64,000 bases of DNA from Clostridiales bacterium FE2011. GTDB taxonomy: Bacteria; Bacillota; Clostridia; Christensenellales; Aristaeellaceae. The position numbers and the translations under genes were made by a program. Numbering within the stretch: the stretch's first letter is position 1; each line of letters opens with the position of its first letter. The DNA lies in the NCBI GenBank assembly GCA_017569305.1, contig CP069418.1:1550001-1614000 (forward strand), written 5' to 3'. Below are positions 2,301 to 55,063 of the stretch, piece after piece. The notes under the pieces were generated by a model. The model ran no database searches. It saw nothing but the letters and a program-made list of their open reading frames with translations, and was not told where the DNA came from.

Positions 2301-2335
2301 ATTATGAATTCATAATTCACAATTCATAATTATTC
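2301..2335. repeat. Heptamer tract between U32 and mutS2
   Basis: Imperfect tandem copies of a 7-base unit (AATTCAT/AATTCAC, plus strand) fill the gap. The U32 stop codon (complement of 2330-2332) lies inside the tract, and the mutS2 ribosome binding site begins just beyond it. Confidence 0.75.
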
Positions 2336-4765
2336 TACTGGTCTTTTCCAATGTCCGGATGTAGTTTCCCCATCCGTCTTCCGTCCTTCTTTGAAAGCCT
2401 TTAGAACCATTCTTGTGTCTTCCGGATCCTCCGTAGTCAGGACAACCGCTCTGTTTAATTCTGAATTCTGAATTCTGAATTCTGAATTGATTATGTCCGT
2501 CGGGAAGGCATTCATCAGCTGTACCAGACACCCTTCCGGCAGCCGCTGACGCAGGAGCGGGAATCGGTATCCCTTCCGGTCTTCCAGCACCTGGTCCTTC
2601 AGTGCGTCCGGATGTCCTTCATCGCACATCCGGCAGCCTGCATGTCCTTTCTTCAGTCCCAGGGCAGTCCGCGCCGGACAGTGGTGCAGCAGCATCAGCC
2701 GTGTCCGTCCGTAAACCGTTGTCACAACAGGCGCGCCCCCGGCCAGGAGCGTCTTCAGTTCCTGTCCCGTCAGTTCAGGTGAGGCTGTCACAAACGCGCA
2801 CCCTTCCTCCATCAGCAGCGAAGCCGCCTGGCGGTTCATCACCGGAACCCCTGCGCCTGCCGCATAAGCTACCGGCCAGTCCGTTCCCAACTGTCCGACA
2901 GAACCCAGTACAACGCCGCCGAGCAGTTCCTTGTTTTCTTCTGTATAACGCCGCAGGGCCTGCAGGGTCTCTTCCTCACATACATCCGGCAGGGCCAGCC
3001 AGTCTCCCGGCTGGATTACCACCTTCAGTGCCTGCAGGGCTTCCGTCCGGTAATCCTCCGGACACCAGACCACCCGCAGCCCGGCTGTTCTGGCTAACTC
3101 AGCCTGCTCTGTCGTCCGAACATAAGCAGTCTGCGGCACTTCTCCCGCAGGAAGGTATTCCGCACAATCTTTTAATCCTGAATTCTGAATTGTTGAGCTG
3201 CTGTCCAAATCTTTGATTTGGGTAACAGCTGCCATGCTACAGCTGTCAAAGGATCTTTGATCCTTTGGTAACAGCGATCGCAGAAATTCTGAATTGGAAA
3301 TTCGTTGTTCGAATTCCCTTATTCTCTCCTCCGCCAGCGCTTCCAGCGCTTCCCGTCGGATAGCGTTCACCCGGCTTACCGGCACAAAGGCGCCTGCCGT
3401 CTTCGCTTTAACCTCACGCGGAACAAAGACCGTATCCCCGGTCTTTTCCAGGCTGCGTCCCAGTTCTTCCTCTGTGACCGCCCGGGTTTTCGCAGCTTCC
3501 ACGACTTCACCCGTGACCGTCACGGTATTCTCTCCGTCCGTAGCAGTCAGGCGCAGTGCTTCTCCGGGCATCGCCTTCAGGAAAAGATCCACCGGCACTG
3601 TCCTGCCCTTCATCGCTTCCGCTTTTTCCAGCTGATCCACAGCCGTCTGGCGGAATACGATATCCCCGCCTTTGGCCTTCACGTCCGGCCTCAGCCGCAG
3701 GATAGCCGTCTCCCCGGTCTTCAGGTTCGGTCCGGCATAAACCAGGCTGATCTCCTCATGTGCTCCCCGCAGTGAAAGCCCGTCACCATTCCGCAGGTCT
3801 TTTTCCAGCTGTACCTTTGCCAGTTTTCCGTCTGCAGCCGTCACCCGGCCGATCCGGACGCCCTGGTGATTCACCGTGTCCGGGAATATCACCCCCGCGT
3901 CCTCGCAGCCCAGGGCATATCCCTTCATGAAGCCGCCCCGGTTAAAGATCTGGAGCAGCCCCTCTTTTTCTGCTTCGTCGGCCTTCTCAAAGCTTCCCCG
4001 TTCAAGGCTGTCCATGCCTTTCCGGTAGCTGGCCGCCACAGTGGCCACATATTCCGGCCGCTTCAGTCTGCCTTCAATCTTGCAGGAAACCACACCGGCC
4101 TCCGCCAGCTTCGGCAGTTCATCCCGCAGGCATACGTCCCTGGGACTCAGCCATGCGCCCCGGCGTCCGCGATAGTCATACTCCATCCGGCAGGGCTGGG
4201 CACACCGGCCGCGGTTTCCGCTTCGTTCTCCAACCATGCTGGAGAACAGGCACAGTCCGCTCACTGCCACACACTGCGCGCCATGAACAAATACTTCAAT
4301 CTCAACACCGGTATCCGCACACTTGCGAATCTCTTCCAGGGAGCACTCCCGTGCCAGCACCGCCCTGCGGATTCCGTGTTTTCCGCACCATACCACTCCT
4401 GTCCGGTTGTGAATGGCCATCTGGGTACTCGCGTGCATCGTCAGGTCCGGGAAAAGGTTCCGGGCGATTCGCAGCACACCCAGGTCCTGCACCAGCACAG
4501 CGTCCGCATGAAGATCATTCAGCAGCCGCAGTACCTCTGTTACCTGTGCCAGTTCCCCGTCCTTCACCAGCGTGTTCACGGTCACATGAACCCGCATATG
4601 GCGCAGATGGGCATAGCGGATGGCATCTTCCAGCTCCTGCCGGTTAAAATTCCCTGCACCGGCGCGCGCACTGAAAGCGGAATACCCAAGGTATACCGCG
4701 TCCGCACCTGCCGCGTCTGCCCGTTCCAGAGCCGCGCGGTTCCCTGCCGGAGCCAGATTCTCCAT
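2330..4765 (-). CDS. Peptidase U32 family protein, RlhA-like, with repeat-derived insertions
   Basis: U32 proteins are Fe-S proteins; E. coli members RlhA and TrhP are needed for hydroxylation of 23S rRNA and tRNA, so an RNA-modification role is more likely than proteolysis. The N-terminal TIM-barrel part is clear, and residues near 160-200 fit the U32 signature (EVFVHGAQCVAVSGLC, then NRGRCAQPC with cluster cysteines). A DUF3656-like region follows, and the C-terminus has a second Cys group (CRMC) and the usual GHWKRPVE end. The protein is long at 811 residues because two stretches are in-frame repeat DNA: one encodes NSEFLRSLLPKDQRSF and onward (DNA 3174-3297), the other INSEFRIQNSELN (DNA 2457-2488). 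ATG 4765 follows AAGGAGTGTAGCGAC. Located between zapA and mutS2. Confidence 0.9.
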   Translation of the reverse strand: MENLAPAGNRAALERADAAGADAVYLGYSAFSARAGAGNFNRQELEDAIRYAHLRHMRVHVTVNTLVKDGELAQVTEVLRLLNDLHADAVLVQDLGVLRIARNLFPDLTMHASTQMAIHNRTGVVWCGKHGIRRAVLARECSLEEIRKCADTGVEIEVFVHGAQCVAVSGLCLFSSMVGERSGNRGRCAQPCRMEYDYRGRRGAWLSPRDVCLRDELPKLAEAGVVSCKIEGRLKRPEYVATVAASYRKGMDSLERGSFEKADEAEKEGLLQIFNRGGFMKGYALGCEDAGVIFPDTVNHQGVRIGRVTAADGKLAKVQLEKDLRNGDGLSLRGAHEEISLVYAGPNLKTGETAILRLRPDVKAKGGDIVFRQTAVDQLEKAEAMKGRTVPVDLFLKAMPGEALRLTATDGENTVTVTGEVVEAAKTRAVTEEELGRSLEKTGDTVFVPREVKAKTAGAFVPVSRVNAIRREALEALAEERIREFEQRISNSEFLRSLLPKDQRSFDSCSMAAVTQIKDLDSSSTIQNSGLKDCAEYLPAGEVPQTAYVRTTEQAELARTAGLRVVWCPEDYRTEALQALKVVIQPGDWLALPDVCEEETLQALRRYTEENKELLGGVVLGSVGQLGTDWPVAYAAGAGVPVMNRQAASLLMEEGCAFVTASPELTGQELKTLLAGGAPVVTTVYGRTRLMLLHHCPARTALGLKKGHAGCRMCDEGHPDALKDQVLEDRKGYRFPLLRQRLPEGCLVQLMNAFPTDIINSEFRIQNSELNRAVVLTTEDPEDTRMVLKAFKEGRKTDGETTSGHWKRPVE
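2457..2488. repeat. AATTCTG heptamer tract inside the U32 coding sequence
   Basis: Four and a half near-perfect copies of AATTCTG on the plus strand. In the gene's sense this reads CAGAATT repeats, translated in frame as INSEFRIQNSELN between conserved C-terminal segments (MNAFPTD before, AVVLTTEDPED after). Confidence 0.85.
3174..3297. repeat. Composite element: two hairpin units bounded by AATTCTG repeats, inside U32
   Basis: Heptamer remnants at 3174-3192 and 3283-3297 bracket two units of the same plan: GCTGTC, a stem, loop TTT, the other arm, GGTAACAGC. Unit 1 is 3200-3229 with stem CAAATC/GATTTG; unit 2 is 3242-3275 with stem AAAGGATC/GATCCTTT. In each unit GCTGT and ACAGC also pair as an outer stem. 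The stems differ in sequence but the frame around them is conserved. The whole block is an open, in-frame insertion in the U32 gene. Confidence 0.75.
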
Positions 4766-4784
4766 GTCGCTACACTCCTTGAAT

Positions 4785-4816
4785 TAATTCATAATTCACA
4801 ATTCATAATTCATAAT
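4785..4816. repeat. Heptamer tract upstream of U32
   Basis: Tandem AATTCAT/AATTCAC units lie directly 5' of the U32 ribosome binding site (minus strand). Confidence 0.75.
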
Positions 4817-4904
4817 GATTATATACCGGCATACTCCTGAATTTCATGCTGAAAGCTTTTATATCCATACGTCGGAAGTCATCTTCCGGATCAACTCAGC
4901 ACTT

Positions 4905-4936
4905 AATTCTGAATTATGAATTATGAATTCTGAATT
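4905..4936. repeat. Heptamer tract at the 3' end of zapA
   Basis: AATTCTG/AATTATG units overlap the last codons of zapA. The final residues IQNS and the stop codon are read from the tract. A small hairpin (GGAAG TCAT CTTCC, 4874-4887) lies beside it. Confidence 0.75.
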
Positions 4937-5193
4937 GCTTTGGCGCTCCGCGCCAATTGCTCGTTCTGCCTGCGCAGCATCGTATTCTCATCCTGCGCCT
5001 TCAGCAATTCTTCCGCCAGGTTAAAACAGGTCAGCACAGCCGCCTGCCCGGAAGGCAGGTTGGTTACCGCTGCCGTTTCGTTCAGTTTCCGGTCCACGAA
5101 AGACGCCACCCGCTTCACAAACTCCGGCGCGTCGCCGGATACCAGCGTATAGTTTTTGCCCGCAACCGTTACGGTGATTTTCTGCTTTTCCAT
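4921..5193 (-). CDS. zapA: Cell division protein ZapA
   Basis: ZapA binds and bundles FtsZ filaments at the division ring. The 90-residue product has the typical N-terminal domain (KITVTVAGKNYTLVSGD, then VDRKLNETAAV) and a helical coiled-coil tail (LLKAQDENTMLRRQNEQLA). The last residues, AIQNS and the stop codon, are supplied by a heptamer repeat tract, so the natural coiled-coil end may be slightly altered or shortened. The start ATG follows GGCAGGAAAT. It begins a zapA-U32-mutS2 set on the minus strand. Confidence 0.92.
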   Translation of the reverse strand: MEKQKITVTVAGKNYTLVSGDAPEFVKRVASFVDRKLNETAAVTNLPSGQAAVLTCFNLAEELLKAQDENTMLRRQNEQLARSAKAIQNS

Positions 5194-5253
5194 TTCCTGC
5201 CTCCTGTCTCTGTCAACCGCCTCATTGAGTACATATGATCCCGTACATAAGTG

Positions 5254-5290
5254 AAAAGCGCAGAAAGGGGTTCAACCCTTTCCGCGCTTC
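5254..5290 (-). terminator. Rho-independent terminator of the cyclophilin gene
   Basis: Hairpin with arms AAGCGC.GAAAGGG and CCCTTTC.GCGCTT (one mismatch), followed on the minus strand by TTTTC. It lies 10 bases past the cyclophilin stop codon. Confidence 0.8.
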
Positions 5291-5300
5291 AATGCTTTTC

Positions 5301-5819
5301 TCAGATCTGGTCAAAGGGATAGCACTGTCCGAATGTATCCACCCGGATCGATGCCATAACCTGCGGCTCAAGCGGTTTATCGGAGCGATCCCGCTTTGCC
5401 TTCACGATGTCCTCTGCCACGTCCATTCCTTCCAGCACTTTGCCGAAGGCAGCGTACTGTCCGTCCAGGTGGGGACTGTCGCTGGTCATGATAAAGAACT
5501 GGCTTCCGGCGGAATCAGGCATCATGCTGCGGGCCATGCTCAGCACACCGTAGGTATGCTTCAGGGGATTGTTAACTCCATTCGCAGCAAATTCGCCTTT
5601 GATGCAGTAGCCGGGGCCGCCGATGCCGATCCCCTTGGGATCGCCGCCCTGGATCATGAAGCCCGGAATGACCCGGTGAAAGATCAGTCCGTCATAGAAA
5701 CCGCTGTTGGCAAGCGCGGTAAAGTTGCCAACGGACTGCGGCGCGACTTCAGGATACAGTTCGCCTTTCATCACACGTCCGTCGTTCATAGTGATTGTAA
5801 ACACAGGATTCTGTGCCAT
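5301..5819 (-). CDS. Peptidyl-prolyl cis-trans isomerase, cyclophilin type
   Basis: Cyclophilins catalyse cis-trans isomerisation of X-Pro bonds. The 172-residue product is a single cyclophilin domain with no signal peptide, so it should be cytoplasmic. Visible family motifs are the [15 protein letters not shown] stretch with the catalytic Arg, the [22 protein letters not shown] core, and [11 protein letters not shown]. Good Shine-Dalgarno GGGAGG precedes ATG 5819. A promoter at 5909-5937 and a terminator at 5254-5290 make it a single-gene unit. Confidence 0.95.
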
Positions 5820-5908
5820 GTTTCTGATTTTCCTCCCTTTGGAGCTCCGCTCCAGTTCCAGATTGTTTTTGAAATATAATTACCTTCATTCAGAATGAAA
5901 GCTTCCCT

Positions 5909-5937
5909 ATTATAACGATTTTTCCCTCCCATGGCAA
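5909..5937 (-). promoter_or_regulatory. Sigma-A-type promoter for the cyclophilin gene
   Basis: Minus strand TTGCCA, 17-base spacer, TATAAT; about 90 bases before the start codon. Confidence 0.75.
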
Positions 5938-6109: not shown

Positions 6110-6111
6110 TC

Positions 6112-6172: not shown

Positions 6173-6200
6173 AAGGGGATTCCCGAAAGGAGTACACGCT

Positions 6201-9438: not shown

Positions 9439-9470
9439 AATTCAGAATTCTGAATTCATAATTCTGAATT
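9439..9470. repeat. Heptamer tract upstream of recJ
   Basis: Units AATTCAG, AATTCTG, AATTCAT, AATTCTG in tandem, ending 4 bases before the recJ Shine-Dalgarno region. Confidence 0.75.
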
Positions 9471-11252: not shown

Positions 11253-11285
11253 ATTATGAATTATGAATTATGAATTGTGAATTAA
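11253..11285. repeat. Heptamer tract in the relA leader
   Basis: Four tandem units of the AATTATG/AATTGTG type, ending about 10 bases before the AAAGGAGG ribosome binding site and therefore transcribed from the promoter at 11176. Confidence 0.8.
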
Positions 11286-13530: not shown

Positions 13531-13532
13531 AA

Positions 13533-13596
13533 CTCTACACTCTACACTCTTCACTCTTCACTGATCACTCATCACTTTTACCTCCTAACTCCTACC
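13533..13596. repeat. Mixed heptamer tract between relA and dtd
   Basis: Units TCTACAC (x2), TCTTCAC (x2), TGATCAC, TCATCAC, then CTCCTAA/CTCCTAC in the plus strand. Two heptamer families meet here, directly after the relA hairpin and before the dtd ribosome binding site. Confidence 0.8.
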
Positions 13597-14216: not shown

Positions 14217-14243
14217 TAATTGTTCAGTATTCATTATTCATTG
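14217..14243. repeat. Heptamer tract at the 3' end of hemZ
   Basis: TTCATTA/TTCAGTA-type units overlap the last codons and stop codon of hemZ. The 130 bases between the dtd terminator and this tract show no gene. Confidence 0.6.
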
Positions 14244-15673
14244 AGAAAAAGCTCGCTTTTTCTCTTTATCATCTCTTCCGTTCTCTTCAGGTATTCCAGT
14301 ATATTGCTCACATTCGGAGCCCGCTCAATGTGTCCTTCTTCAGGGAAAATCCGCTTTGAGATTCCGCCGGCACCCATGGCCAGAATATGACTCGTTTCTT
14401 CCATGATGTCCACATTATAGAGGCACGCATGGCCCGGCAGGGCATATCCGGTATTCTCCAGGTTCCCTGCCATATATTTCTGCTTATACAGGTAATACGG
14501 CGCCATGCCCATGGCCCTTGCTGTTTCCCGTCCGGCTTCCACCATGCGGGCTGTCATATTTCCATCCGGAAGCGGATGGTTTTCCAGGCTCATCCGTGAG
14601 GAGCGCTTGATTGCCAGGGTATGCACAGTCAGGCTTTCCGGCCGCAGTTTCCGGGCTTCTTCCATGGTGTGGGCGAAATCCGCTTCATTTTCCCCCGGCA
14701 GTCCGGCAATCACGTCCATATTGATATGGGGAATTGCTTCTTCCCGGGCCAGGGCATAGGCTTCCCGTACCTGCTGCGCCGTATGGGCCCGGCCGATAAT
14801 CTCCAGCGTCCGGTCATTCATAGTCTGGGGATTGATGGAAATCCGGCCGATACCGGCGTTCCGGATTGCCCGGAGCTTTTCCCGGGTCAGGGTATCCGGC
14901 CGTCCCGCTTCCACGGTATACTCCATTGCACCCGGAAAGCAGCGCACGGTTTCTTCCATCAGCTGCTCAAAGGCTCCCTGCGGCAGCGCTGTGGGAGTAC
15001 CTCCGCCCACATACAAAGCACGCAGCTTCCGTCCGCTGTTCTTCAGGATCTCCGCACAGGCTCTCATTTCCCGCGTCAGGGAGGCCATATAAGGCTCGAT
15101 CAGGCTTCCGTCGCCTATTTCTCCGGAGGAGAAGGAACAGTAGGCACAACGGGTCGTACAGAAGGGAATACCGATATAGACGTCCATCCATTCGTCCCCG
15201 GGTTTCGGAAGCTTCCGCTGTTCCGCCGCAATCTCCGCCAGCAGTGCAGCCCGGTCAGGCGCCACGTCAAAATCCGCAGCCAGCCGTTCAATCGCCGCTT
15301 CCGGCGTCAGGCCTTCCTCAAGGGCTTCCAGCATCAGATGCGTCGGCCGTACGCCGGTCAGGCTGCCCCAGGGCGGCTGAATACCGGTTATTTCCTTCAG
15401 CAGATCATACAAGGTCTGCTTGCAAAGACGCCTGGCCGCGCGTCTGCGATGCAGGGTACGGATCCGCTCATCCGCATCCTCCGGCGCCGGAGTACTCCGT
15501 TCCACGCGATGTCCGTCTGCCGCGAAGGCAATATAAAACCGCCCTTCCTTTTCTTCAGAAAGGGGTACAAACTTCCGGGGTTCATCCCATACACTTTCCG
15601 GAAACCCGAAGATCCGGGTTAACACCCTCAGCTCCGGTTCAATCGTCTCCAGATAGCTCTCTATTTCCGTCAT
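14234..15673 (-). CDS. hemZ: Radical SAM coproporphyrinogen dehydrogenase-like protein HemZ
   Basis: HemZ/HemN-type enzymes use radical SAM chemistry; the class reaction is oxygen-independent oxidation of coproporphyrinogen III, although many HemN-like proteins act on other substrates. The 479-residue protein has an N-terminal extension typical of HemZ, then the cluster motif CTTRCAYC (residues ~172-179) after YIGIPF, the GGGTPTAL stretch, EAGRPDT, and RISINPQTMND. The C-terminal YYLYKQKYMAGNLENTGYA is a HemZ hallmark. ATG 15673 follows TAGGAT. It lies 28 bases behind the metallo-hydrolase, so the two are probably cotranscribed. No other heme genes are in view, so the true substrate is uncertain. 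Confidence 0.88.
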   Translation of the reverse strand: MTEIESYLETIEPELRVLTRIFGFPESVWDEPRKFVPLSEEKEGRFYIAFAADGHRVERSTPAPEDADERIRTLHRRRAARRLCKQTLYDLLKEITGIQPPWGSLTGVRPTHLMLEALEEGLTPEAAIERLAADFDVAPDRAALLAEIAAEQRKLPKPGDEWMDVYIGIPFCTTRCAYCSFSSGEIGDGSLIEPYMASLTREMRACAEILKNSGRKLRALYVGGGTPTALPQGAFEQLMEETVRCFPGAMEYTVEAGRPDTLTREKLRAIRNAGIGRISINPQTMNDRTLEIIGRAHTAQQVREAYALAREEAIPHINMDVIAGLPGENEADFAHTMEEARKLRPESLTVHTLAIKRSSRMSLENHPLPDGNMTARMVEAGRETARAMGMAPYYLYKQKYMAGNLENTGYALPGHACLYNVDIMEETSHILAMGAGGISKRIFPEEGHIERAPNVSNILEYLKRTEEMIKRKSELFLNE

Positions 15674-15685
15674 ATCCTACCAACC

Positions 15686-15707
15686 ATTAATTGTTAATTG
15701 ATTAATG
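15686..15707. repeat. Heptamer tract ending the metallo-hydrolase gene
   Basis: ATTAATTG/TTAATTG-type units. The stop codon of the upstream metallo-hydrolase gene is inside the tract. Confidence 0.65.
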
Positions 15708-16337
15708 TCCTGCATGCATTGGCATCGTCCGCACTAAAGATGACAGGCGGCGCAGCGACGCTACCATGTCACTCTCGTTCCCGCCCGGCAGATCTGTCCT
15801 GCCCCAACCGTATTCAAAGATGGTATCGCCGGTAAAGAGCTCTCCTTCAATTTCATAGCAGACACTGCCCGGCGTATGGCCCGGCGTATGCAGCACCTTT
15901 ACCTTCAGTCCGGCCAGATCCAGCTCATCGCCTTCCCTCACCAGATCTGTCGCTTCAGGCGCTGTAATCTGTTGTCCCATGAGCCCAATACTGGCATTCA
16001 ACTCCGGATTTCCCAGCATCGGTGCATCTAATTCGTGTATAACAATTCTAGTACTTTGGGAAAAACCTGTTGTTGACAGGTCATCTTTTCCCGCCTCAGC
16101 GGATAATTCTGAATTCTGAATTCTGAATTCTGAATTGAGCAGTTCCCGAACTGCTCCTATGTGGTCAAAATGCCCGTGTGTCAGCAGAATCGCCGCGATT
16201 TTCCGGTCTCCTGCAGCCTTCCGGATCCGTTTTGCTTCGTCTCCGGGATCAATCACGATGCATTCCTGTCCATCCTCTTTGCTCAGGACATAACAGCGGG
16301 TCTGCACCGGTCCCACGGTAAGCTCATCAATCCGCAT
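15702..16337 (-). CDS. MBL-fold metallo-hydrolase (glyoxalase II-like), with repeat insertion and short C-terminus
   Basis: Small MBL-fold hydrolases bind two metals; related ones hydrolyse thioesters such as S-lactoylglutathione. Ligands are visible: LTHGHFDHIG (HxHxDH), HTPGHTPGS and FTGDTIF. Between GAVRELL and IVIHELDAPML about 25 residues (starting NSEFRIQNSELSAEAG) come from an in-frame composite repeat at 16058-16136, absent from typical relatives. The protein also ends soon after the last conserved helix (MPMHAGH), where relatives normally run on with a PGHG-x-x-T loop and more residues; the stop lies in another heptamer tract. ATG 16337 follows GGAGGGATATGT. It is plausible but unproven that the enzyme still works. 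Confidence 0.82.
   Translation of the reverse strand: MRIDELTVGPVQTRCYVLSKEDGQECIVIDPGDEAKRIRKAAGDRKIAAILLTHGHFDHIGAVRELLNSEFRIQNSELSAEAGKDDLSTTGFSQSTRIVIHELDAPMLGNPELNASIGLMGQQITAPEATDLVREGDELDLAGLKVKVLHTPGHTPGSVCYEIEGELFTGDTIFEYGWGRTDLPGGNESDMVASLRRLSSLVRTMPMHAGH
16058..16136. repeat. Composite hairpin plus AATTCTG tract inside the metallo-hydrolase gene
   Basis: A long hairpin (GGGAAAA-ACCTGT / ACAGGT-CATC-TTTTCCC, 16058-16092) is followed by four AATTCTG units (16105-16136). The block is read in frame on the minus strand. Confidence 0.75.
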
Positions 16338-17809: not shown

Positions 17810-17866
17810 TGTCTTTCCCTCCGGTAATTGTCATTTTGAAAACAGGTAAAAGGTGAAGGTTTATTT

Positions 17867-17897
17867 ACCTCCTACCTCCTACCTCCTACTTCATACC
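17867..17897. repeat. GTAGGAG heptamer tract after ftsY
   Basis: On the minus strand the units are GTATGAA, GTAGGAG, GTAGGAG, GTAGGAG, starting at the base after the ftsY stop codon. The tract resembles a run of Shine-Dalgarno sites but is ~60 bases from the glyS start. Confidence 0.8.
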
Positions 17898-18812
17898 TTA
17901 GAATAAAGCTTCCACAAATTCCTTGGCGTTGAAGGGCTGCAGGTCGTCAATCCCCTCGCCCACGCCAATGTACCATACCGGCACTTCCAGTTCCTGCCGG
18001 ATCGCCAGCGCGATGCCGCCCTTGGCGGTACCGTCCAGCTTCGACAGGATAATGCCGCCGATCTCAGCGACTTCCTTGAAGGCACGTGCCTGCATCAGGC
18101 CGTTCTGACCCGTGGTGGCGTCCAGAACCAGGATGCAGCGGGTATCCGCTTCCGGATACTCCCGGTCAATAACCCGGCGCATCTTGTTCAGCTCATCCAT
18201 CAGGTTCTTCTTGTTATGCAGCCGTCCGGCGGTATCCACAATCAGCAAATCCACACCCTGGGCCTTGGCCGACTGGATGGCGTCAAACACCACAGCAGCC
18301 GGATCCGCGCCTTCCGCATGCTTGACGATCGGAACTCTTGCCCGTTCCGCCCATACGCTCAGCTGCTCCGCTGCCGCGGCGCGGAAAGTATCTCCGGCGC
18401 ACAGCATGACCTTCCGGCCGATGGCCTGGAAACGCAGTGCCAGCTTGCCGATCGTCGTGGTCTTACCCACGCCGTTCACACCCACCAGCAGCATCACCAT
18501 GGGCCACTTCAGCGGAGGCCGCGGGATATCCATCTGCTCCACCATGATCTGCTTGAGCATCTCACGGGCTTCAGCGGCGTCCTTGACCTTGCCTGCCTTC
18601 ACCCGGTCCTTCAGCTCATCCACGATCGTCTCGGTGGCTTTCAGGCCGCAGTCGGCCATGAGCAGGATATCTTCCAGCTCTTCATAGAAGTCATCGTCGA
18701 TCTTCCGGTTCTCCCTGACCATGTCGTCGACTTTTTCGGTCATGTTTCCCCGGGTTTTGCTCAGTCCTTCCCGCAGTCTCGCGAAAAGGCCCTTTTTCTT
18801 CTCTTCGGACAT
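17898..18812 (-). CDS. ftsY: Signal recognition particle receptor FtsY
   Basis: FtsY is the SRP receptor GTPase that delivers ribosomes to the membrane. The N domain is helical, followed by the SRP GTPase: G1 GVNGVGKTTTIGKL at residue ~111, AGDTFRAAAAEQL, DTAGRLHNKKNLMDEL, LDATTGQNGL, SKLDGTAKGG and the final GVGEGIDDLQPF. The acidic A domain is short, as in most Bacillota, giving 304 residues. ATG 18812 follows GAGGAGATAAAAA. It lies between serS and glyS; ffh is not nearby. Confidence 0.97.
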   Translation of the reverse strand: MSEEKKKGLFARLREGLSKTRGNMTEKVDDMVRENRKIDDDFYEELEDILLMADCGLKATETIVDELKDRVKAGKVKDAAEAREMLKQIMVEQMDIPRPPLKWPMVMLLVGVNGVGKTTTIGKLALRFQAIGRKVMLCAGDTFRAAAAEQLSVWAERARVPIVKHAEGADPAAVVFDAIQSAKAQGVDLLIVDTAGRLHNKKNLMDELNKMRRVIDREYPEADTRCILVLDATTGQNGLMQARAFKEVAEIGGIILSKLDGTAKGGIALAIRQELEVPVWYIGVGEGIDDLQPFNAKEFVEALF

Positions 18813-18858: not shown

Positions 18859-18890
18859 ACCTCCTACTTCCTACCTCCTACTTCCTACCT
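18859..18890. repeat. GTAGGAA/GTAGGAG heptamer tract after serS
   Basis: On the minus strand GTAGGAA and GTAGGAG alternate over four units, starting a few bases past the serS stop and ending ~45 bases before the ftsY start. Confidence 0.8.
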
Positions 18891-23276: not shown

Positions 23277-23284
23277 CTCCACCA

Positions 23285-23371
23285 TTATTCATTTTTAAGT
23301 CTTAAGTTTTCAGTTTTCATTAGTGTCTGCTTGCAGACACAACAATTCTTCATTCTTCATTTCAGAAAAGC
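23285..23371. repeat. Composite element after metK: hairpin flanked by two heptamer tracts
   Basis: Left tract (TAAGTCT, TAAGTTT, TCAGTTT, TCAT units), then a perfect GTGTCTGC-TT-GCAGACAC hairpin (23323-23340), then a right tract (TTCTTCA units) that also carries the metK stop codon at 23357-23359. Confidence 0.65.
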
Positions 23372-24529
23372 CTTCAGCTTTTCGACATAGTCTTCCTTCT
23401 CCCAGGGCAGGTCCACGTCTGTCCGTCCGAAGTGGCCGTAGGCCGCGGTCTGACGATAGATGGGCCGGCGCAGGTTCAGTCGCTCAATGATGGCGGAAGG
23501 CCGGAAGTCGAACACCTTGGTCACGATCTCCGCCAGCTTGTCATCCGGCAGCACACCGGTGCCGAAAGTATCCACCAGCACGCTGACGGGTTCCGCCACG
23601 CCGATAGCATAGGCCAGCTGGATCTGGCAGCGCTCAGCCAAGCCGGCAGCCACCACGTTCTTCGCGGCATGACGGGCAGCATAGGCAGCGCTCCGGTCCA
23701 CCTTGGTCGGGTCCTTACCGGAGAAGCATCCGCCGCCGTGGGGTGCGGATCCGCCGTAGGTATCCACGATGATTTTCCGTCCGGTCAGGCCGGTATCTCC
23801 GGTCGGTCCGCCGATCACGAAACGGCCGGTGGGATTGATCAGGATCCGGGTCTTGTCCGTCAGCAGCTCCTTGGGAATAATGGGCAGAATCACCTGCTCC
23901 TTGATACCCTTTCTCAGCTCATCCATATCCACGTCAGCGGAATGCTGGGCGGAAACCACCACGGTGTCCACCGCGACGGGCTTGTCGTTTTCGTATTCCA
24001 CAGTCACCTGGGTCTTTCCGTCCGGATAGAGGAAAGGCAGCGTGCCGTCCTTACGCACCTGCGTCAGGCGGAGCGCCATCCGGTGGCTCAGGGCAATAGC
24101 CAGGGGCATCCTTTCGGGTGTCTCGGTGCAGGCATAACCGAACATCATACCCTGGTCGCCGGCGCCGATATCCGCTTCCTTGCTGCTGTCCCGGGTTTCC
24201 AGGGCGTCGTTCACGCCCATGGCGATATCCGGGCTCTGCTCATGAATGGCGGTCATCACGGCGCAAGTATTGCCGTTAAAGGATTTTTCGGGAGAATCAT
24301 AACCGATCTCGGTCACAACCTTCCGGACAATGGCGTTGATATCCACATAGGAAGTGGTGGTTATCTCACCCATCACGGTGATGATGCCCGTAGTCGCGAA
24401 GGTTTCGCAGGCCACGCGGGCTTTGGGGTCGTTTTCCAGGATGGCGTCCAGCACCGCGTCGGAAACCTGGTCGCACAGTTTGTCGGGATGTCCCTCAGTA
24501 ACAGATTCAGAAGTAAACAGTCTGCGCAT
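23357..24529 (-). CDS. metK: S-adenosylmethionine synthetase
   Basis: Makes SAM from methionine and ATP. The 390-residue protein has the full MAT pattern: [13 protein letters not shown] with the ATP-binding His, [12 protein letters not shown], the [21 protein letters not shown] region and [22 protein letters not shown] 24529 follows AAGGAGAAGAA; codons upstream belong to the riboswitch leader. It is controlled by a SAM-I riboswitch and intrinsic terminator, so SAM should shut it off. Confidence 0.98.
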
Positions 24530-24683: not shown

Positions 24684-24704
24684 GATTCGATCTTGTTGAC
24701 CGTC

Positions 24705-24815
24705 CTTATCTGTCAGCGCCTCCCTGTGGGGTGTGCACGCTGCGGGATTTGGCACCTTGCTTTCGCCGGTTGCCGTGACATCATCAGGCCCGTCCTTCAG
24801 TCACTCGTGATAAGG
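24705..24815 (-). promoter_or_regulatory. SAM-I (S-box) riboswitch
   Basis: Minus strand begins CTTATCACGAGTGACTGAAG, continues with GGGCCTGATGA, CGGCAACC and AAGGTGCCAAATCC, and closes the P1 stem with GACAGATAAG. These are the conserved S-box blocks in the right order and spacing. It lies between the metK promoter and the terminator at 24649-24683. Confidence 0.95.
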
Positions 24816-24833
24816 TATTCAGTTGCGGAACGT

Positions 24834-24892: not shown

Positions 24893-24931
24893 AATTAATT
24901 GTGAATTATTAATTGTTAATTGTTAATTATT
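24893..24931. repeat. TTAATTG heptamer tract at the 3' end of pduL
   Basis: Units TTAATTG and TGAATTA; the pduL stop codon (complement of 24927-24929) is at its edge. Confidence 0.75.
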
Positions 24932-25622: not shown

Positions 25623-25657
25623 ATTCATTCATTATGCATCATGCATTATGAATTATA
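25623..25657. repeat. ATGCATT/ATGCATC heptamer tract after mscL
   Basis: Units TTCATTC, ATTATGC, ATCATGC, ATTATGA in tandem between mscL and the palindrome. Confidence 0.7.
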
Positions 25658-25667
25658 AAGTGTTTGA

Positions 25668-36951: not shown

Positions 36952-36978
36952 AAAGAGGACCTTCCTTCAAATCACTTT

Positions 36979-37011
36979 ATGATTCATTATTCATTTTTCA
37001 TTGTCATTATT
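36979..37011. repeat. TTCATTA-type heptamer tract between glpK and pgsA
   Basis: Units TTCATTA, TTCATTT, TTCATTG, TCATTAT in tandem, directly after the glpK stop codon. Confidence 0.7.
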
Positions 37012-44346: not shown

Positions 44347-44386
44347 ATCTGAATTGTTAATTGTTAATTGTTCATTGTTCATTGCT
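44347..44386. repeat. TTAATTG/TTCATTG heptamer tract between sepF and divIVA
   Basis: Units TGAATTG, TTAATTG, TTAATTG, TTCATTG, TTCATTG, ending near the divIVA Shine-Dalgarno region. Confidence 0.8.
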
Positions 44387-50110: not shown

Positions 50111-50144
50111 CAATTCAGGATTCAGAAATCAGAATTCAGAATTA
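50111..50144. repeat. CAGAATT-orientation heptamer tract
   Basis: ATTCAGG, ATTCAGA, AATCAGA, ATTCAGA units. The 310-base gap 50004-50322 holds the minus promoter above, this tract and the next; no promoter for recD2 was clear. Confidence 0.7.
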
Positions 50145-50275
50145 TCTGTTTCATATCCTTCAGGGACTCCCTGAACAGAGGCCGGATGTTTCGAAAAACA
50201 GCCCTCCTTGAAACAACGGCACATACCCGTTTTATATTCCCGAATATCCCGAAATCATTTGAGCCGGACATATAA

Positions 50276-50306
50276 TTATGCATTATGCATCATGCATTTT
50301 GCATTG
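50276..50306. repeat. ATGCATT heptamer tract before recD2
   Basis: ATTATGC, ATTATGC, ATCATGC, ATTTTGC units, ending about 8 bases before the recD2 Shine-Dalgarno site. Confidence 0.8.
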
Positions 50307-50322: not shown

Positions 50323-52557
50323 ATGGAACAGCTTGAGGCGACCATCCAGGGTACCGTTTTCCGGAATGAGGAAAACGGCTGGTCCGTCCTGACCGTCCGT
50401 TCCGGCCGGTCAGAGATTACCGTGGTCGGCTCCCTGCCGGAGCTGAGTCCCGGTGAACAGGCTGTTTTTTCAGGCGACTGGATAGAACATCGTACCTACG
50501 GCCGCCAGTTTCACTGTGTCTCCTGCGAACTGAAAACGCCCACAACCCTCCTGGGGATTGAGCGATTCCTCGGCAGCGGCCTGATCCACGGTGTGGGTCC
50601 GTCCACTGCCCAGCTGATTGTTGAAGCCTTCGGGGAAGAAACCCTTGTGGTTCTCTCCGAGCATCCGGAGCGCCTGAGCGAGGTTCGCGGCATCGGCAAA
50701 AAGCGAGCCATCATGATTGCCGAAAGCTTCCGGGAGCAGCAGAGCACCCGGCGCGCCATGGTCTTCCTTCAGTCCTACGGTATTTCCCCTGCCCTGGCCA
50801 TCCGGATCAGCCGGCATTACGGCGACCGCACCCCGGAAATCGTCCGGGAGAATCCTTACCGCCTGTGCGATGACCTGGAAGGCGTGGGGTTCAAAACCGC
50901 GGACCGCATCGGTCTGTCCCTGGGCATTCCGCCCGACAGTGAAAACCGCGTCAAATCCGCCATGACCTATATCCTGCGGGATGCTGCCGCTGCTTCAGGT
51001 CATGTTTACCTGCCGGAAACGGAGCTCTGTTCCGCCTCCGCCTCGCTGCTCAACGTGCCGCTCACCCTTTGTCAGCAGGCACTGCGCAGCATGCTTGTTT
51101 CCGGCGCGCTTCATTCCGAAACGGATGAAGCGGCAGAAAACCGCCGGGTTTACCTGCCTTATTACCGTTACGCGGAGCAGGAGGTCGCCCTCATGATCCG
51201 CCGCCTGATGGTTGCCATTACACCCGACAAATACGCCGGTGTTTCCCGGGCGATTTCGTCCTTTGAAAAACGCCGGAACATCACCTTCTCCCCCACCCAG
51301 CGCCAGGCCATTGCCGGTGCGCTGGAAAACGGTGTCTTTGTAATTACCGGCGGCCCCGGCACAGGCAAAACCACGATCATCAACTGCATTCTGGAGCTGC
51401 TCTCGAAGGATAACGAGACGGTTCTTTGCGCCCCTACCGGCCGCGCCGCCAAACGGATGAGCGAGGCCACCGGCGCAGAAGCGCGAACCATTCACCGCCT
51501 GCTGGAATACAGCGGTGAGCAGGGCGCCTTCACCCGCACGGATGACAACCCGCTGGAAGCGGACTGCGTCATCGCGGATGAAACCTCCATGATCGACCTG
51601 GTCCTGATGCGCGCCCTGCTGAAGGCCATCCGCCCCGGCACCCGCCTGATCCTCGTCGGCGACGCGGATCAGCTGCCCAGCGTCGGCGCGGGCAACGTGC
51701 TCGGCGATATTCTCGACAGCGGTGAAGTGCCTTGTGTCCGCCTTACGGAAATCTACCGCCAGAGCGGGGAAAGCCAGATCGTCGTGAACGCCCACCTGAT
51801 CAATAACGGACAAATGCCGGTACTTAACGGCAAAGGCACGGATTTCTTCTTTGAGCGTAAAACCGCCCTGGCCGACGCAGCCCAGAGCATCACGGCCCTG
51901 GTCACTTCCCGGCTGCCCGGTTATCTGCATTATCCGGAAGAGGAGCGTCTCTCCCTTTCCGTCCGGAACATCCAGGTTCTTGCTCCCTCCCGCAAAGGAG
52001 AATGCGGCGTCAACAGCCTCAACCTCCGCCTGCAGGAAATGCTCAACCCGCCCGCCTCGGACAAGCCGCAGCTGCAATGGGGAGAAACCATATTCCGTCT
52101 GGGAGACAAGGTCATCCAGACCCGGAATGATTACCGTCTTCCCTGGCGCCGGGAAACCTCCGCCGGCATTGAGGACGGTGCCGGTGTGTTCAACGGCGAT
52201 ATCGGCTTCATCATCGACGTGGATCCGGAAAACCATATGCTTACCGTCCGCTTTGATGAGGAGCGGGAAGCCACCTATGAATCCGGAGACCTGGAAGACC
52301 TGGAGCCCGCCTACTGCCTCAGCGTGCATAAATCCCAGGGCAGTGAGTTCCCGGTGGTCGTCATGCCCGTGACCCCCGGACCGCCTATGCTGCTCACCCG
52401 CAACCTGCTTTATACTGCCCTGACCAGGGCCCGCAGCCTCGTGGTGCTGGTCGGCACCGAGGCCGTGATCCGCCGCATGGTGGAAAACGATCATGTGATC
52501 TGCCGCTACACCACCCTGGCCCGCCGGCTGATCGAAACCCGGGAGCTTGTACAATGA
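50323..52557 (+). CDS. recD2: ATP-dependent DNA helicase RecD2
   Basis: RecD2 is a 5' to 3' SF1B helicase acting without RecBC in repair and replication restart. The 744-residue protein has the N-terminal OB region (MEQLEATIQGTVFRNEENGW), a HhH segment (GSGLIHGVGPSTAQLIVEAFG, EVRGIGKKRA), and the motor: Walker A ITGGPGTGKTTIIN, CAPTGRAAKRM, DETSMIDL, LVGDADQLPSVG, ITEIYRQ-like LTEIYRQS, and C-terminal YCLSVHKSQGSEFP with TALTRAR. All helicase motifs look intact. ATG 50323 follows TGGAG. It is coupled to comF (ATGA). Confidence 0.96.
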   Translation: MEQLEATIQGTVFRNEENGWSVLTVRSGRSEITVVGSLPELSPGEQAVFSGDWIEHRTYGRQFHCVSCELKTPTTLLGIERFLGSGLIHGVGPSTAQLIVEAFGEETLVVLSEHPERLSEVRGIGKKRAIMIAESFREQQSTRRAMVFLQSYGISPALAIRISRHYGDRTPEIVRENPYRLCDDLEGVGFKTADRIGLSLGIPPDSENRVKSAMTYILRDAAAASGHVYLPETELCSASASLLNVPLTLCQQALRSMLVSGALHSETDEAAENRRVYLPYYRYAEQEVALMIRRLMVAITPDKYAGVSRAISSFEKRRNITFSPTQRQAIAGALENGVFVITGGPGTGKTTIINCILELLSKDNETVLCAPTGRAAKRMSEATGAEARTIHRLLEYSGEQGAFTRTDDNPLEADCVIADETSMIDLVLMRALLKAIRPGTRLILVGDADQLPSVGAGNVLGDILDSGEVPCVRLTEIYRQSGESQIVVNAHLINNGQMPVLNGKGTDFFFERKTALADAAQSITALVTSRLPGYLHYPEEERLSLSVRNIQVLAPSRKGECGVNSLNLRLQEMLNPPASDKPQLQWGETIFRLGDKVIQTRNDYRLPWRRETSAGIEDGAGVFNGDIGFIIDVDPENHMLTVRFDEEREATYESGDLEDLEPAYCLSVHKSQGSEFPVVVMPVTPGPPMLLTRNLLYTALTRARSLVVLVGTEAVIRRMVENDHVICRYTTLARRLIETRELVQ

Positions 52558-53258
52558 GCCCCCGCCCTTTCGAAACCTGGCTGTTCGGCAAGTGGGGGCC
52601 GCTTGAAAAAGCCCTTGCCCGCTGGGGAAAAGACGTCATCTGGCCCGAGGATGCCCTCTGCTGTGTCTGCGGCAGGGTAACAGATAAGGACGGTCTCTGT
52701 GCCTACTGCCGGGAATCCCTGGAGCATGACGGCTTCTTTTTCGCCTGGGAACGTTCCGATCCGGATCCTGATCTACCTGTCTGGTCCCTCCGTCCGCATG
52801 AAGGCATTCCCCGGGAACTGGTGATCCGACTCAAATACGGTGCGGAAGCACGTGCCGCCCGCATCCTTGCAAGCCTGCTCCTTCCCCTGCCGGATGACGT
52901 GGTTTTCCCGCCGGACACGGTTGTCACCTGGGTCACCATGCCGGAATCCCGCCGCCGGGAGCGAGCCGTCGATCACGGCCGCCTGCTGGCGGAAGCCTTC
53001 GCGGAAAAGCTGTCCCTGCCCTGCAGGCAGCTGCTGCTTCGGCGTGACCGCCGGGAAAAGCGCCAGGTAGGACTGAATGAAAAAGAGCGCGCCGCCAATC
53101 TGGCAGGCGCTTTCACACCCAAAGAAAAGATCACTTTTCCGGTACTCATCGTGGACGATGTGCGCACCACAGGCACCACTCTCTGCCGCTGTGCGGAAGC
53201 CCTGCGATCCGGCGGCGCGGAAAAGATTTTCGGTCTGACCGTCACCGCCCGAAAATAA
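52554..53258 (+). CDS. comF: ComF family phosphoribosyltransferase-like protein
   Basis: ComF proteins take part in natural transformation, with a role in ssDNA handling. The 234-residue protein has an N-terminal four-Cys zinc finger (ALCCVCGRVTDKDGLCAYC), then a PRTase domain with VLIVDDVRTTGTTLCRCAEAL and RRDRREKRQVGLNEKERAANL. The start overlaps the end of recD2. Other competence genes are outside the window. Confidence 0.93.
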   Translation: MSPRPFETWLFGKWGPLEKALARWGKDVIWPEDALCCVCGRVTDKDGLCAYCRESLEHDGFFFAWERSDPDPDLPVWSLRPHEGIPRELVIRLKYGAEARAARILASLLLPLPDDVVFPPDTVVTWVTMPESRRRERAVDHGRLLAEAFAEKLSLPCRQLLLRRDRREKRQVGLNEKERAANLAGAFTPKEKITFPVLIVDDVRTTGTTLCRCAEALRSGGAEKIFGLTVTARK

Positions 53259-53288
53259 TTGACATATAAGCCCTTTCGGCAGTATTAT
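53259..53288 (+). promoter_or_regulatory. Promoter for aspartate kinase
   Basis: TTGACA at 53259-53264, 18-base spacer, TATTAT at 53283-53288; it begins inside the comF stop codon region. Confidence 0.72.
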
Positions 53289-53481
53289 ATACGTTGGTCT
53301 GTTGCGATCAGGCGAACGTTTTTTGACGTTCAGCTCTCTTCATAACAGCCAATAGTATTGAATTCCGAATTCCACGTTTAAAAGGATTTTGTTTAAATCC
53401 GTGTCGGTATTCACTATGATCCCTGGGAAGTATTCGTCATCCTGAGCGTATGTGTCAGGAAACTTTCCGCCGCAGCGGATC
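53289..53481 (+). promoter_or_regulatory. Long leader of the aspartate kinase gene
   Basis: About 190 bases with a GAACGT-TTTTTG-ACGTTC hairpin (53312-53329 region), a copy of GTCATCCTGAG (53436-53446) that recurs at 54975, and a TCCTGA/TCAGGA pair. I looked for a lysine riboswitch and did not find its conserved blocks, nor a terminator in front of the gene. Confidence 0.45.
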
Positions 53482-53513
53482 ATTCTGAATTCTGAATTCT
53501 GAATTCTGAATTA
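53482..53513. repeat. AATTCTG heptamer tract before aspartate kinase
   Basis: Four near-perfect ATTCTGA units ending 6 bases before GGAGG. Confidence 0.85.
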
Positions 53514-53532
53514 GTATTTGGAGGTTTGCCCT

Positions 53533-54855
53533 GTGCTTGAATGTATCGTGACAAAATTCGGCGGCAGCTCGCTGGCCAATGATGAACAGTTCCGTAAGGT
53601 TCGCAGCATTCTGGAGCTGGAACCCACCCGTCGCTACCTGGTCCCCAGCGCTCCCGGCAAACGCTTCAAGGAAGACGATAAAGTCACTGACCTGCTGTAT
53701 CAGTGCTATGACCTTGCCTGCGAAGGCAAATCCATCGCGGAGCCTTTTTCCCGTATCCGGGATCGCTATCTGTCCATCGCCCGCGCTCTGCACCTGAAAG
53801 TGGATATCAACTCCAAACTGGACGAAGTGGAGCAGGGTATCTCCTCCGGCAAGGGCAAGGACTGGTGCGCCAGCCGCGGTGAATACCTCTGCGGTATCCT
53901 GATGGCTGACTACCTGGGATGGCGTTTCGTGGATCCCATTGACGGGATTTTCTTCAACGATAACGGCACCCTGGATGATGAGAAGACCCAGGAAAAGCTC
54001 TCTGCCCTCCTTGCGGACGGCGAGCCTGCTGTTGTGCCCGGTTTCTACGGTTCCAAGGCAAACGGTGAAGTCTGCACCTTCTCCCGCAGCGGCAGCGATA
54101 TCACCGGTGCTCTGGTGGCCCGTGCGGTGAATGCCGATGTGTATGAAAACTGGACCGACGTTTCCGGTTTCCTGATGGCGGATCCCCGGATCATCGAAAA
54201 CCCGGCGGAAATTTCCTCCATCACCTACAAGGAGCTGCGGGAGCTGAGCCACATGGGTGCTTCCGTCCTTCATGAGGACGCGATGTTCCCGGTACACAAG
54301 GCCGGCATCCCCACCAATATCCGTAACACCAACAAGCCGTATCATCCCGGCACCATGATCAGCAAGAACGCTCCCAATGAGATTTCCGTTCCCACCATCA
54401 CCGGTATCGCCGGTCACAAGGGATACAGCGTTATCTCCATTGAAAAGAGCATGATGAACAGCGAAGTCGGTTTCGGCCGCAAGGTGCTGCAGGTGCTTGA
54501 AAACTACGGCGTGTCCTTTGAACATATGCCCACCGGTATCGACAGCATGTGCGTTGTGGTGAACAGCGCCACCCTGGAGCCTCATCGGGCCGATATCCTT
54601 AAGGAGATCGAGAACCTGGTGGACGGCAGCGGCAGCGTCTCTGTCAGCGACAACATGTCCATCATCGCCACCGTCGGCCGCGGCATGGTGCATAACTGCG
54701 GTACCGCCGCCCGTCTCTTCTCCGCCATGAGCCGTGCCCGCATCAACGTGCGGATGATCGACCAGGGCTCCAGCGAGCTGAGCATCATCGTCGGCGTCAA
54801 CGACAACGACTTTGAAGCCACCATCCACGCCATCTACCACGAGTTCGTGGGATAA
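53533..54855 (+). CDS. lysC: Aspartate kinase
   Basis: First step of the lysine/threonine/methionine pathway. The 440-residue protein has the kinase signature VTKFGGSSLAN, the catalytic stretch GSDITGALVARAVNADVYENWTDVSG, ADPRIIENPAEI, and two C-terminal ACT domains (TGIAGHKGYSVISIEKSMMN; SIIATVGRGMVHNCGTAARL) that normally bind amino-acid inhibitors. The start is GTG 53533, 8 bases after GGAGG. Terminator follows. No other pathway gene is adjacent. Confidence 0.95.
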   Translation: MLECIVTKFGGSSLANDEQFRKVRSILELEPTRRYLVPSAPGKRFKEDDKVTDLLYQCYDLACEGKSIAEPFSRIRDRYLSIARALHLKVDINSKLDEVEQGISSGKGKDWCASRGEYLCGILMADYLGWRFVDPIDGIFFNDNGTLDDEKTQEKLSALLADGEPAVVPGFYGSKANGEVCTFSRSGSDITGALVARAVNADVYENWTDVSGFLMADPRIIENPAEISSITYKELRELSHMGASVLHEDAMFPVHKAGIPTNIRNTNKPYHPGTMISKNAPNEISVPTITGIAGHKGYSVISIEKSMMNSEVGFGRKVLQVLENYGVSFEHMPTGIDSMCVVVNSATLEPHRADILKEIENLVDGSGSVSVSDNMSIIATVGRGMVHNCGTAARLFSAMSRARINVRMIDQGSSELSIIVGVNDNDFEATIHAIYHEFVG

Positions 54856-54867
54856 CGATGTTACAGC

Positions 54868-54905
54868 AAGCCTGCGGAAGCATTCTGCTTCCCGCAGGCT
54901 TTTTC
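54868..54905 (+). terminator. Aspartate kinase terminator
   Basis: AAGCCTGCGG-AAGCA / TGCTT-CCCGCAGGCTT hairpin (one bulged C) and T-run. Confidence 0.88.
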
Positions 54906-54919
54906 TTTTTCATGACTTC

Positions 54920-54949
54920 TTGCCGAAAAAACCTGTAATGTTATATAAT
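54920..54949 (+). promoter_or_regulatory. Promoter for the rfbD-like gene
   Basis: TTGCCG, 18-base spacer, TATAAT. Confidence 0.68.
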
Positions 54950-55028
54950 TACAACATCCCGTTACCGCTGATTTGTCATCCTGAGTGACTATGTGGTAAA
55001 CTCAATACAATAAAGTAAATCAATCCTT

Positions 55029-55063
55029 TAATTCTGAATTCTGAATTATGAATTCTGAATTGA
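55029..55063. repeat. AATTCTG/AATTATG heptamer tract before rfbD
   Basis: Four to five units ending in the leader just before the rfbD ribosome binding site; a GTCATCCTGAG copy lies ~45 bases upstream, as in the aspartate kinase leader. Confidence 0.82.

Follow-up and report, generated by a model that had tools for sequence, protein, structure and literature searches.

Why does a single bacterial chromosome carry, in one gene gap after another, short tandem arrays whose letters vary and whose period is always seven? The question is raised by a 64,000-nucleotide stretch of Clostridiales bacterium FE2011 (the window, hereafter), positions 1,550,001 to 1,614,000 of a 3.56-Mb single-contig genome that is labelled G000 and whose nearest named relatives by RecJ are Clostridia metagenome-assembled genomes sampled from the gut of goat, water buffalo, and other ruminants. 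The reading favored here, with a probability of about one half, is that these tracts represent a dispersed heptad-array element of approximately 32 bp, of the known heptameric-repeat kind, that has been copied around the genome and then turned over in 7-bp steps. The pattern belongs to a kind that is known but unexplained and has been seen in scattered other bacteria; here the letters change at constant period between sister species, several families coexist in one genome, and the units lack a quadruplex motif.

The initial annotation counted at least 20 period-7 sites in the window, and the observation is confirmed: Tandem Repeats Finder (score 30) gives 22 distinct sites and a stricter scan 19, and all 12 coordinates offered as examples carry tracts. 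A lag scan of the window, requiring self-match at no fewer than 20 of 28 positions, found 18 places at lag 7, none at lags 3-6, 8, 10, 11, and 13, one at lag 9, and four at lag 12, with 13 places at the harmonic lag 14 and four at lag 15. The excess also extends beyond the window. Forty evenly spaced 20-kb stretches (800 kb of the 3.56 Mb; with the window 864 kb, a 24% sample) yielded 117 tracts at lag 7, none at lags 4, 5, 8, 11, and 13, one at lag 10, 13, 11, and 20 at lags 6, 9, and 12 (multiples of three), and 77 and 31 at the harmonic lags 14 and 21. When only the 449 gene gaps called in the sample and the window were scanned (117 kb), 113 lag-7 tracts appeared vs 0-1 for every other lag between 4 and 13, and 20 dinucleotide-preserving shuffles produced no lag-7 tract in any case. 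For this genome, then, the period-7 excess whose absence the initial annotation had named as a refutation is present. Likewise, runs of three or more AATT in G000 are spaced by seven in 79 instances, by eight in one, and by 4-6 or 9-12 in none.

The array set thus defined comprises 136 period-7 tracts in the 864 kb, and the early description of one fixed period shared by several units is upheld. Under our own labels, the families are F1 (AATTATG, AATTGTG, AATTCTG, AATTCTT), F2 (ACTCTTC and kin), F3 (TACCTCC), F4 (TTTTAAG), F5 (ATTATGC), and F6 (ATTCATT, AATTGTT), with F1 providing 74 tracts, F4 20, F3 18, F2 11, F6 10, and F5 3. Different families can stand in phase inside one array, as in the succession CACTCAT-CACTTTT-ACCTCCT-AACTCCT within 13532-13596. 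Length has a fixed mode: the commonest array is 32 bp (4 x 7 + 4), with 41 of 136 at exactly that length and 73 at 31-33 bp, and the most frequent AATT strings have four spacers, matching the four-unit mode. A G-quadruplex motif (four G3 tracts with loops of 1-7, either strand) occurs in 0 of 136 arrays; GGG itself is present in six of the 18 F3 arrays and in no array of another family.

Gene gaps hold 130 of the 136 tracts, stretch ends four, and called genes two. Genes were called with a simple hexamer model that places some starts too far downstream (recJ among them), and distances to starts are therefore approximate. Among the sense F1 arrays of co-directional gaps, 19 of 28 stop 10-36 nt short of the called start (22 of 28 lie within 50 nt of it); among the antisense ones, 22 of 27 start in the interval from 14 nt upstream to 34 nt downstream of the stop codon's last base. 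Over all gaps of at least 150 bp the edge preference is moderate and not exclusive, with 53 of 90 array midpoints no more than 50 bp from an edge against 34.5 expected if uniform. The proposal that tracts sit 5' of ribosome-binding sites (RBS) or on stop codons consequently holds with refinements, namely a polarity that depends on the gap edge, an edge preference that is not absolute, and the two tracts inside genes. The polarity is strong in F1 of G000, where arrays at the left-gene edge are minus in 27 cases and plus in 7, and those at the right-gene edge plus in 33 and minus in 3 (Fisher p = 1e-9). F4 (9:1 and 9:1) and F3 (7:0 and 6:3) share this edge polarity; F2 is opposite in sign, which ruled out a purine/pyrimidine rule. 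In four other genomes of the genus F1 shows 29:6 at left and 15:8 at right edges (p = 3e-4). With all families of those genomes pooled, the association (p = 5e-4) is carried by left edges, right edges having 21 plus vs 18 minus arrays and co-directional gaps 15 vs 16, such that the bias there is confined to F1.

Because F1 polarity is fixed toward the gap edge, gaps are often bracketed by inverted arrays. With a bracket defined by an array no more than 45 bp from both edges, 23 of 397 scored gaps (60 bp or longer) are bracketed vs 10.0 if the two edges were independent within stretches. The arrays that make up a bracket show no specific matching. An RNA stem between them was tried and rejected in 17 gaps (mean duplex energy -21.3 real vs -21.2 permuted, 93 of 200 permutations as low as real, and -7.5 with right arrays flipped), as was a stem between arrays at both ends of one gene (8 genes; 104 of 200 permutations as low). 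A conserved insertion-target flank fared no better, the 66 F1 arrays examined having weak preferences (inner positions T 71% and A 55%; outside G 42%). Several brackets enclose dispersed REP-like elements (GTCATCCTGACCAAGGCC...GGATCTCCTCCGG...), for example L032 14569-14718 and L016 9782-9928. Gene gaps L017 17181-17301 and L071 within 5318-5594 hold rows of hairpins with differing stems, alike loops (CTTCG/CGAAG), and alike spacers (ATGATAT or ATTTCACAT). The AATTCTG-type matches listed are all on the plus strand between 0.25 and 1.25 Mb of G000 and mostly minus between 3.0 and 3.26 Mb, which raises a suspicion of replication-strand bias.

Comparison with sister species shows what changes and what does not. 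Three relatives found through RecJ (protein identities of 95, 87, and 86%) carry arrays at many shared places, often with different units. Sites were mapped by interpolation, any tract within the mapped gap counting as the counterpart, and the stretches of G182 were partly picked where a pattern search had listed arrays. Five scores were given, in this order: identical, changed within the family, family kept but strand reversed, another family, and no array. The counterparts of mapped G000 sites number 2, 14, 0, 7, and 6 in G066 (29 sites); 5, 8, 0, 2, and 1 in G182 (16); 0, 12, 1, 4, and 2 in G157 (19); 0, 5, 1, 6, and 4 in G132 (16); and 0, 2, 2, 1, and 1 in G154 (6). Heptad letters thus change between sister species while position and the spacing of seven often stay. 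Between genomes approximately 94-95% identical, arrays differ in length by 7 and 14 bp. A unit variant has spread within one array (ATG-CTG-ATG-ATG in G000, ATG-CTG-CTG-CTG in G182), and at relA one and the same 3' flank, AAATCCGACTGAAAGGAGG, goes with F1 in G000 and with F6 in G132. In-phase family succession, 7- and 14-bp steps, and the spread of variants are as expected of slippage and homogenisation in 7-bp steps, which keep the period, let the letters drift, and leave different heptads at orthologous sites. The contention that a fixed period with free sequence rules out slippage therefore fails, and the dedicated mechanism for setting length 7 that was deduced from it is not borne out; an inherited period with drifting letters suffices once an array exists.

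Local slippage does not account for everything. The string ATG-ATG-GTG-ATG recurs in 10 of the 79 AATT runs of G000 and is present also in G066, G132, and G182, and CTG-CTG-CTT-CTG recurs in 7 of 79 and is present also in G132 and G182; these strings sit at unrelated loci and across species. A 35-bp piece of one G000 array is found again, letter for letter, at other loci in G132, G157, and G182. That multi-unit strings recur ready-made suggests copying from locus to locus, and together with edge polarity, which local slippage leaves equally unexplained, implies that some copying or selection is also at work. Moreover, one gap differs by a whole bracket: at L034 6102-6216 the bracket is carried by G000 and by G182, the two sharing flanks of 96 and 93% identity, and is absent from G066, whose flanks are 98 and 96% identical to those of G000, as well as from G132, G154, G153, and G165. 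G166 has a short heptad remnant there, and for G157, G162, and G161 one flank is missing. Two further whole-bracket differences are possible, at L034 10140-10277 and at G000 2434789.

The wider distribution is patchy. The F1 pattern AATTNNNAATTNNNAATTNNNAATT occurs 425 times in G000 (overlaps counted) vs 18 for a reversed control pattern, and in 14 of 41 genomes of the genus, with 412, 293, 181, and 165 matches in the next genomes, falling to 1, and no match in 27. G000, G066, G132, G157, and G182 have the highest counts and are called array-rich; the assemblies of G000 and G182 are single contigs, approximately 97% complete. A draw from the family has the pattern in 25 of 150 genomes, with bursts in other genera that consist in part of different units (AATTAGG in G051, AATTCGG beside AATTCTG in G087, AATTCCT in G060), and a draw from the class has it in 36 of 291, at no more than 33 matches outside G000. 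The F1 pattern underestimates the spread of heptads, given that two genomes without it, G161 and G162, carry others; no heptads were seen within the 14-24 kb looked at in G026, G149, G005, G048, and G025. The heptads of G161 at L123 4774-4844 are CCCTAAA and CACTATC, the former being the plant telomere unit.

The arrays of the window are the following, the first of them lying at a gene (2330-4765, minus strand) that is U32-peptidase-like, its family matches falling below curated cut-offs.

2307-2331, minus: F1 array AATTCAT/AATTCAC, overlapping the stop codon of the U32-like gene
2457-2488, plus: F1 AATTCTG x4.6, coding site 1 of the U32-like gene, in frame; its sense strand reads CAGAATT
3174-3302, no strand assigned: coding site 2 of the U32-like gene, heptad remnants at 3174-3192 and 3284-3302 flanking a hairpin-bearing repeat of about 90-100 bp
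4785-4816, minus: F1 array about 20 bp 5' of the U32-like gene start
4902-4936, plus: F1 array, right partner of an inverted pair with 4785-4816, overlapping the end of a small called gene (4921-5193, minus)
9439-9470, plus: mixed F1 array AATTCAG, AATTCTG, AATTCAT, immediately 5' of the recJ RBS
11253-11284, plus: F1 array AATTATG/AATTGTG, immediately 5' of the relA/spoT RBS
13532-13596, plus: F2 array ACTCTAC/ACTCTTC that continues in phase as F3 heptads; it follows relA and lies 5' of the next gene
14219-14242, plus: short F6 tract ATTATTC (Tandem Repeats Finder)
15686-15706, plus: short tract ATTAATTG (Tandem Repeats Finder)
16105-16136, plus: F1 array AATTCTG x4.6 within a called gene (15702-16337, minus)
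17866-17898, plus: F3 array TACCTCC immediately after the stop codon of ftsY, which is on the minus strand
18859-18890, plus: F3 array immediately after the stop codon of serS, which is on the minus strand
23283-23319, plus: mixed F6/F4 array CATTATT, TTTTAAG, TTTTCAG (tandem-repeat scans)
23345-23361, plus: short ATTCTTC tract; a called gene on the minus strand (23357-24529) ends here
24894-24931, plus: F6 array AATTGTT/AATTATT (tandem-repeat scans)
25625-25659, plus: F5 array CATTATG/CATCATG (tandem-repeat scans)
36976-37011, plus: F6 array ATTCATT (tandem-repeat scans)
44352-44384, plus: F6 array AATTGTT/CATTGTT (tandem-repeat scans)
50112-50143, minus: F1 array AATTCAG, lying 5' of recD2 in one gap with the next array
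50275-50305, plus: F5 array ATTATGC immediately 5' of recD2
53482-53512, plus: F1 array ATTCTGA immediately 5' of the aspartate kinase RBS
55030-55061, plus: F1 array immediately 5' of the rmlD RBS; the G066 copy is identical

The U32-like gene holds two in-frame sites. Site 1 is filled in G000, G066, G157, G132, and G154 (66-87 bp between fixed codons) and in G165, as seen in the protein alignment only, and it is empty in G166, G112, G161, and G149 (48-51 bp). Site 2 is a plain array in G066, G157, and G132 (183 bp), empty in G165, G112, and G161 (165 bp), 180 bp without a heptad array in G149, and a hairpin-bearing repeat nested in a heptad array in G000, G154, and G166 (270-279 bp); G162 and G026 were left out of this comparison. 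The units are swapped between genomes, site 1 having CAGAATT in G066 and CACAATG in G157 and site 2 the reverse. The hairpin repeat itself (3193-3283 of the window) is in frame, and its translation matches many other places in the genomes of relatives. In a search for empty counterparts of 238 sites, the matches listed were mostly array sites themselves, and a filtered list of six rows held one clean empty site, coding site 1 of G132 as compared with G166. An Rfam scan of the window gave the SAM riboswitch as the sole family at gathering score and no match on any array; the riboswitch lies at 24703-24816 on the minus strand. The hemZ block (14268-15956; L043 12915-14605) is inverted between G000 and G066, and one of its ends lies approximately 30 bp from the heptad tract 14219-14242.

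How might such a landscape arise? The tracts would be copies of one kind of dispersed tandem-repeat element, typically four heptads plus four bases. Ready-made arrays, sometimes as inverted pairs that bracket a gap, would reach new sites by copying at the DNA level, in a spread presumed to be neutral. Once in place an array would persist while its units turned over by 7-bp slippage and homogenisation, perhaps aided by conversion from elsewhere in the genome; comparison between genomes shows the 7-bp steps and the changed units, from which the process is inferred. Arrays would survive mostly at gap edges, before an RBS or at or after a stop codon, and in tolerant linkers inside genes, with selection or an insertion bias fixing their polarity. 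Several findings count against this account. No mobilising enzyme was identified, and no case of clean insertion with a duplicated target came to light, not even at the one clear whole-bracket difference. The bracket at L034 replaces a short gap there and does not interrupt it, and the direction of change rests on outgroups. Single-edge arrays (22 left, 34 right) outnumber the 23 brackets, though brackets exceed expectation, and gap-edge polarity is not predicted by neutral spread. Finally, orthologous F1 pairs of G000 and G066 have a mean identity of 0.88 (8 pairs, 2 exact) vs 0.87 for F1 pairs drawn at random inside G000. Little of the orthologous signal has thus survived turnover, and exact copying is consequently hard to separate from convergence on a small vocabulary.

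Among the alternatives, the one that survives best, though we consider it improbable, would make the arrays functional elements of untranslated regions, sites for an RNA- or DNA-binding regulator such as a cold-shock protein, S1, a CsrA-like protein, or a nucleoid protein, read in a 7-nt register and kept by selection beside the RBS or stop. The narrow F1 positions relative to starts and stops accord with this, as does the frequent retention of arrays at shared sites of sister species while units change, and Geobacter authors called their 5 x MTYCTGA pairs global regulator binding sites (PMC2700814). Nevertheless, turnover at one site is free of sequence, which argues against a sequence-specific binder. 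Further, the F1 pattern is unmatched in the 27 genomes of the genus mentioned above, though some carry other heptads; the neighbors are unrelated housekeeping genes, for example recJ, relA, glyS, ftsY, and serS; and two arrays lie inside called genes.

Somewhat more doubtful is the possibility that the inverted pairs are terminal repeats of transposase-moved elements resembling miniature inverted-repeat transposable elements or foldback elements, single arrays being decayed ends. The bracket excess and the presence or absence of a whole bracket at L034 6102-6216, with the two possible further cases, are what such elements would leave, and Y1_Tnp genes occur in all five array-rich genomes. However, what the brackets enclose varies in length and sequence, a REP-like piece being shared by some of them; the left and right partners of a gap are unmatched by duplex energy; and no target duplication was seen at the one clear whole-bracket difference. 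Y1_Tnp genes are found in 25 of 41 genomes of the genus (G000 has three such genes), F1-free G026, G149, G159, and G162 among them, such that a Y1 transposase was ruled out as the discriminating gene. A bolder and rather speculative proposal is that a sequence-indifferent generator, recurrent in unrelated phyla, writes arrays of about four heptads as polarised brackets at gap edges, its machinery setting period, unit count, and polarity and leaving the letters free; if so, the G-quadruplexes proposed for the Xanthomonas version would be incidental.

That each array arose by itself through independent local slippage at AT-rich gap edges is very unlikely, for although 7- and 14-bp indels are its natural product, it is disfavored by multi-unit strings that recur identically at unrelated loci and from one species to another, by the fixed 32-bp mode, and by the polarity at gap edges. 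A telomerase-like reverse transcriptase, with an RNA template offering a 4-nt alignment region and three new bases per unit, is scarcely credible: the layout AATT + NNN + AATT may resemble such an alignment region plus template, but several unit families per genome would require several templates, RVT_1 (PF00078) has 0 matches in the five array-rich genomes, which largely refutes a writer of that type, though not a polymerase outside RVT_1, and G154, with 98 F1 matches and four RVT_1 matches, shows that reverse transcriptase presence and arrays are unlinked either way.

Heptad systems of other bacteria place the proposed element in context. Geobacter, one of the hosts concerned, belongs to a different phylum from the host studied here. 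The short tandemly repeated repetitive (STRR) sequences of cyanobacteria (Mazel, 1990) are reportedly dispersed intergenic heptad arrays with CCCCA(A/G)T-type units, and the small dispersed repeat (SDR) elements of Elhai (2008) are said to be small repeats nested inside them; coding site 2, with its nested small repeat, would resemble an SDR in an STRR. Unlike the cyanobacterial STRR, the arrays here occur in a genome whose nearest named relatives are Clostridia, and their units differ. The portions of the literature on heptanucleotide and intergenic repeats available to us contained none on repeats of Clostridia.

The closest parallel is provided by the heptameric repeats of Xanthomonas (GGGAATC) and Nostoc (GGGGA(C/T)T), for which the available passages of Rehm et al. 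(2015; PMC4692102) give four units as the commonest count and approximately 90% intergenic location, mainly between co-directional genes. In the 50 bp preceding starts their G strand is antisense, and in the 50 bp following stops it is sense; stop codons are overlapped, and each Xanthomonas genome has 70-75 convergent heptad pairs; sister species mostly keep the same gene context, with length and sequence varying. The resemblance to heptamer repeats of other bacteria suspected in the initial annotation is accordingly upheld in period, unit count, location, and opposite polarity: the arrays here have period 7 with at least two units, a 32-bp four-unit mode (41/136), a location in gene gaps (130/136), with most co-directional F1 arrays close to a start or stop, and opposite strand preference at the two gene ends (F1 27:7 and 33:3) with inverted pairs (23 brackets). 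There are differences as well. The hosts are Clostridia here and Xanthomonas and Nostoc there, and several families share one genome here and replace each other at orthologous sites. Rehm et al. report increased stability of the regions around their repeats, whereas array-bearing gaps here differ strongly between close species. In vitro their G-rich repeats fold into G-quadruplexes, and Rehm et al. connect these with the preference for four units. Given that the architecture is as in Xanthomonas but 0 of 136 arrays have the motif, quadruplexes cannot be the general cause.

Similarly, the TAACTGA direct repeats of Beggiatoaceae, Cyanobacteria, and Bacteroidetes (MacGregor, 2015; PMC4679880, which cites Mrazek, 2007 on heptad abundance) come in sets of 2-6 copies with a patchy distribution, most just upstream of start codons and some overlapping stop codons or inside genes; single reverse-oriented sets adjoin the stop codon or upstream gene, and two close Cyanothece strains differ mostly by 7-nt indels. 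Heptads, start-upstream position, stop overlap, patchiness, and 7-nt indels are thus shared. That system, however, has one unit, related heptamers being rare or absent as direct repeats in its genome, vs several families here; few of its sets have a downstream Shine-Dalgarno sequence, and the passages on PMC4679880 describe no gap bracketing. TAACTGA itself, on either strand, occurs in 0 of 136 arrays. In Geobacter metallireducens, 4 x GGGACCG occurs in 49 places, and 15 of the 16 class 3 sites carry 5 x MTYCTGA (PMC2700814). The authors describe these as regulatory RNA elements or as sites bound by global regulators. They are like the present arrays in having four to five heptads within and between genes, and the sequences of class 3 sites are shown on opposite strands; one of the heptads covered by MTYCTGA is ATTCTGA, which is also an F1 unit. 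The passages on PMC2700814 describe no evolutionary test.

Heptameric repeats have been noted group by group, each with a separate story, be it G-quadruplex, translational regulator, or global regulator site. The genome described here removes one of these explanations, the quadruplex, for the four-unit preference and makes the others testable.

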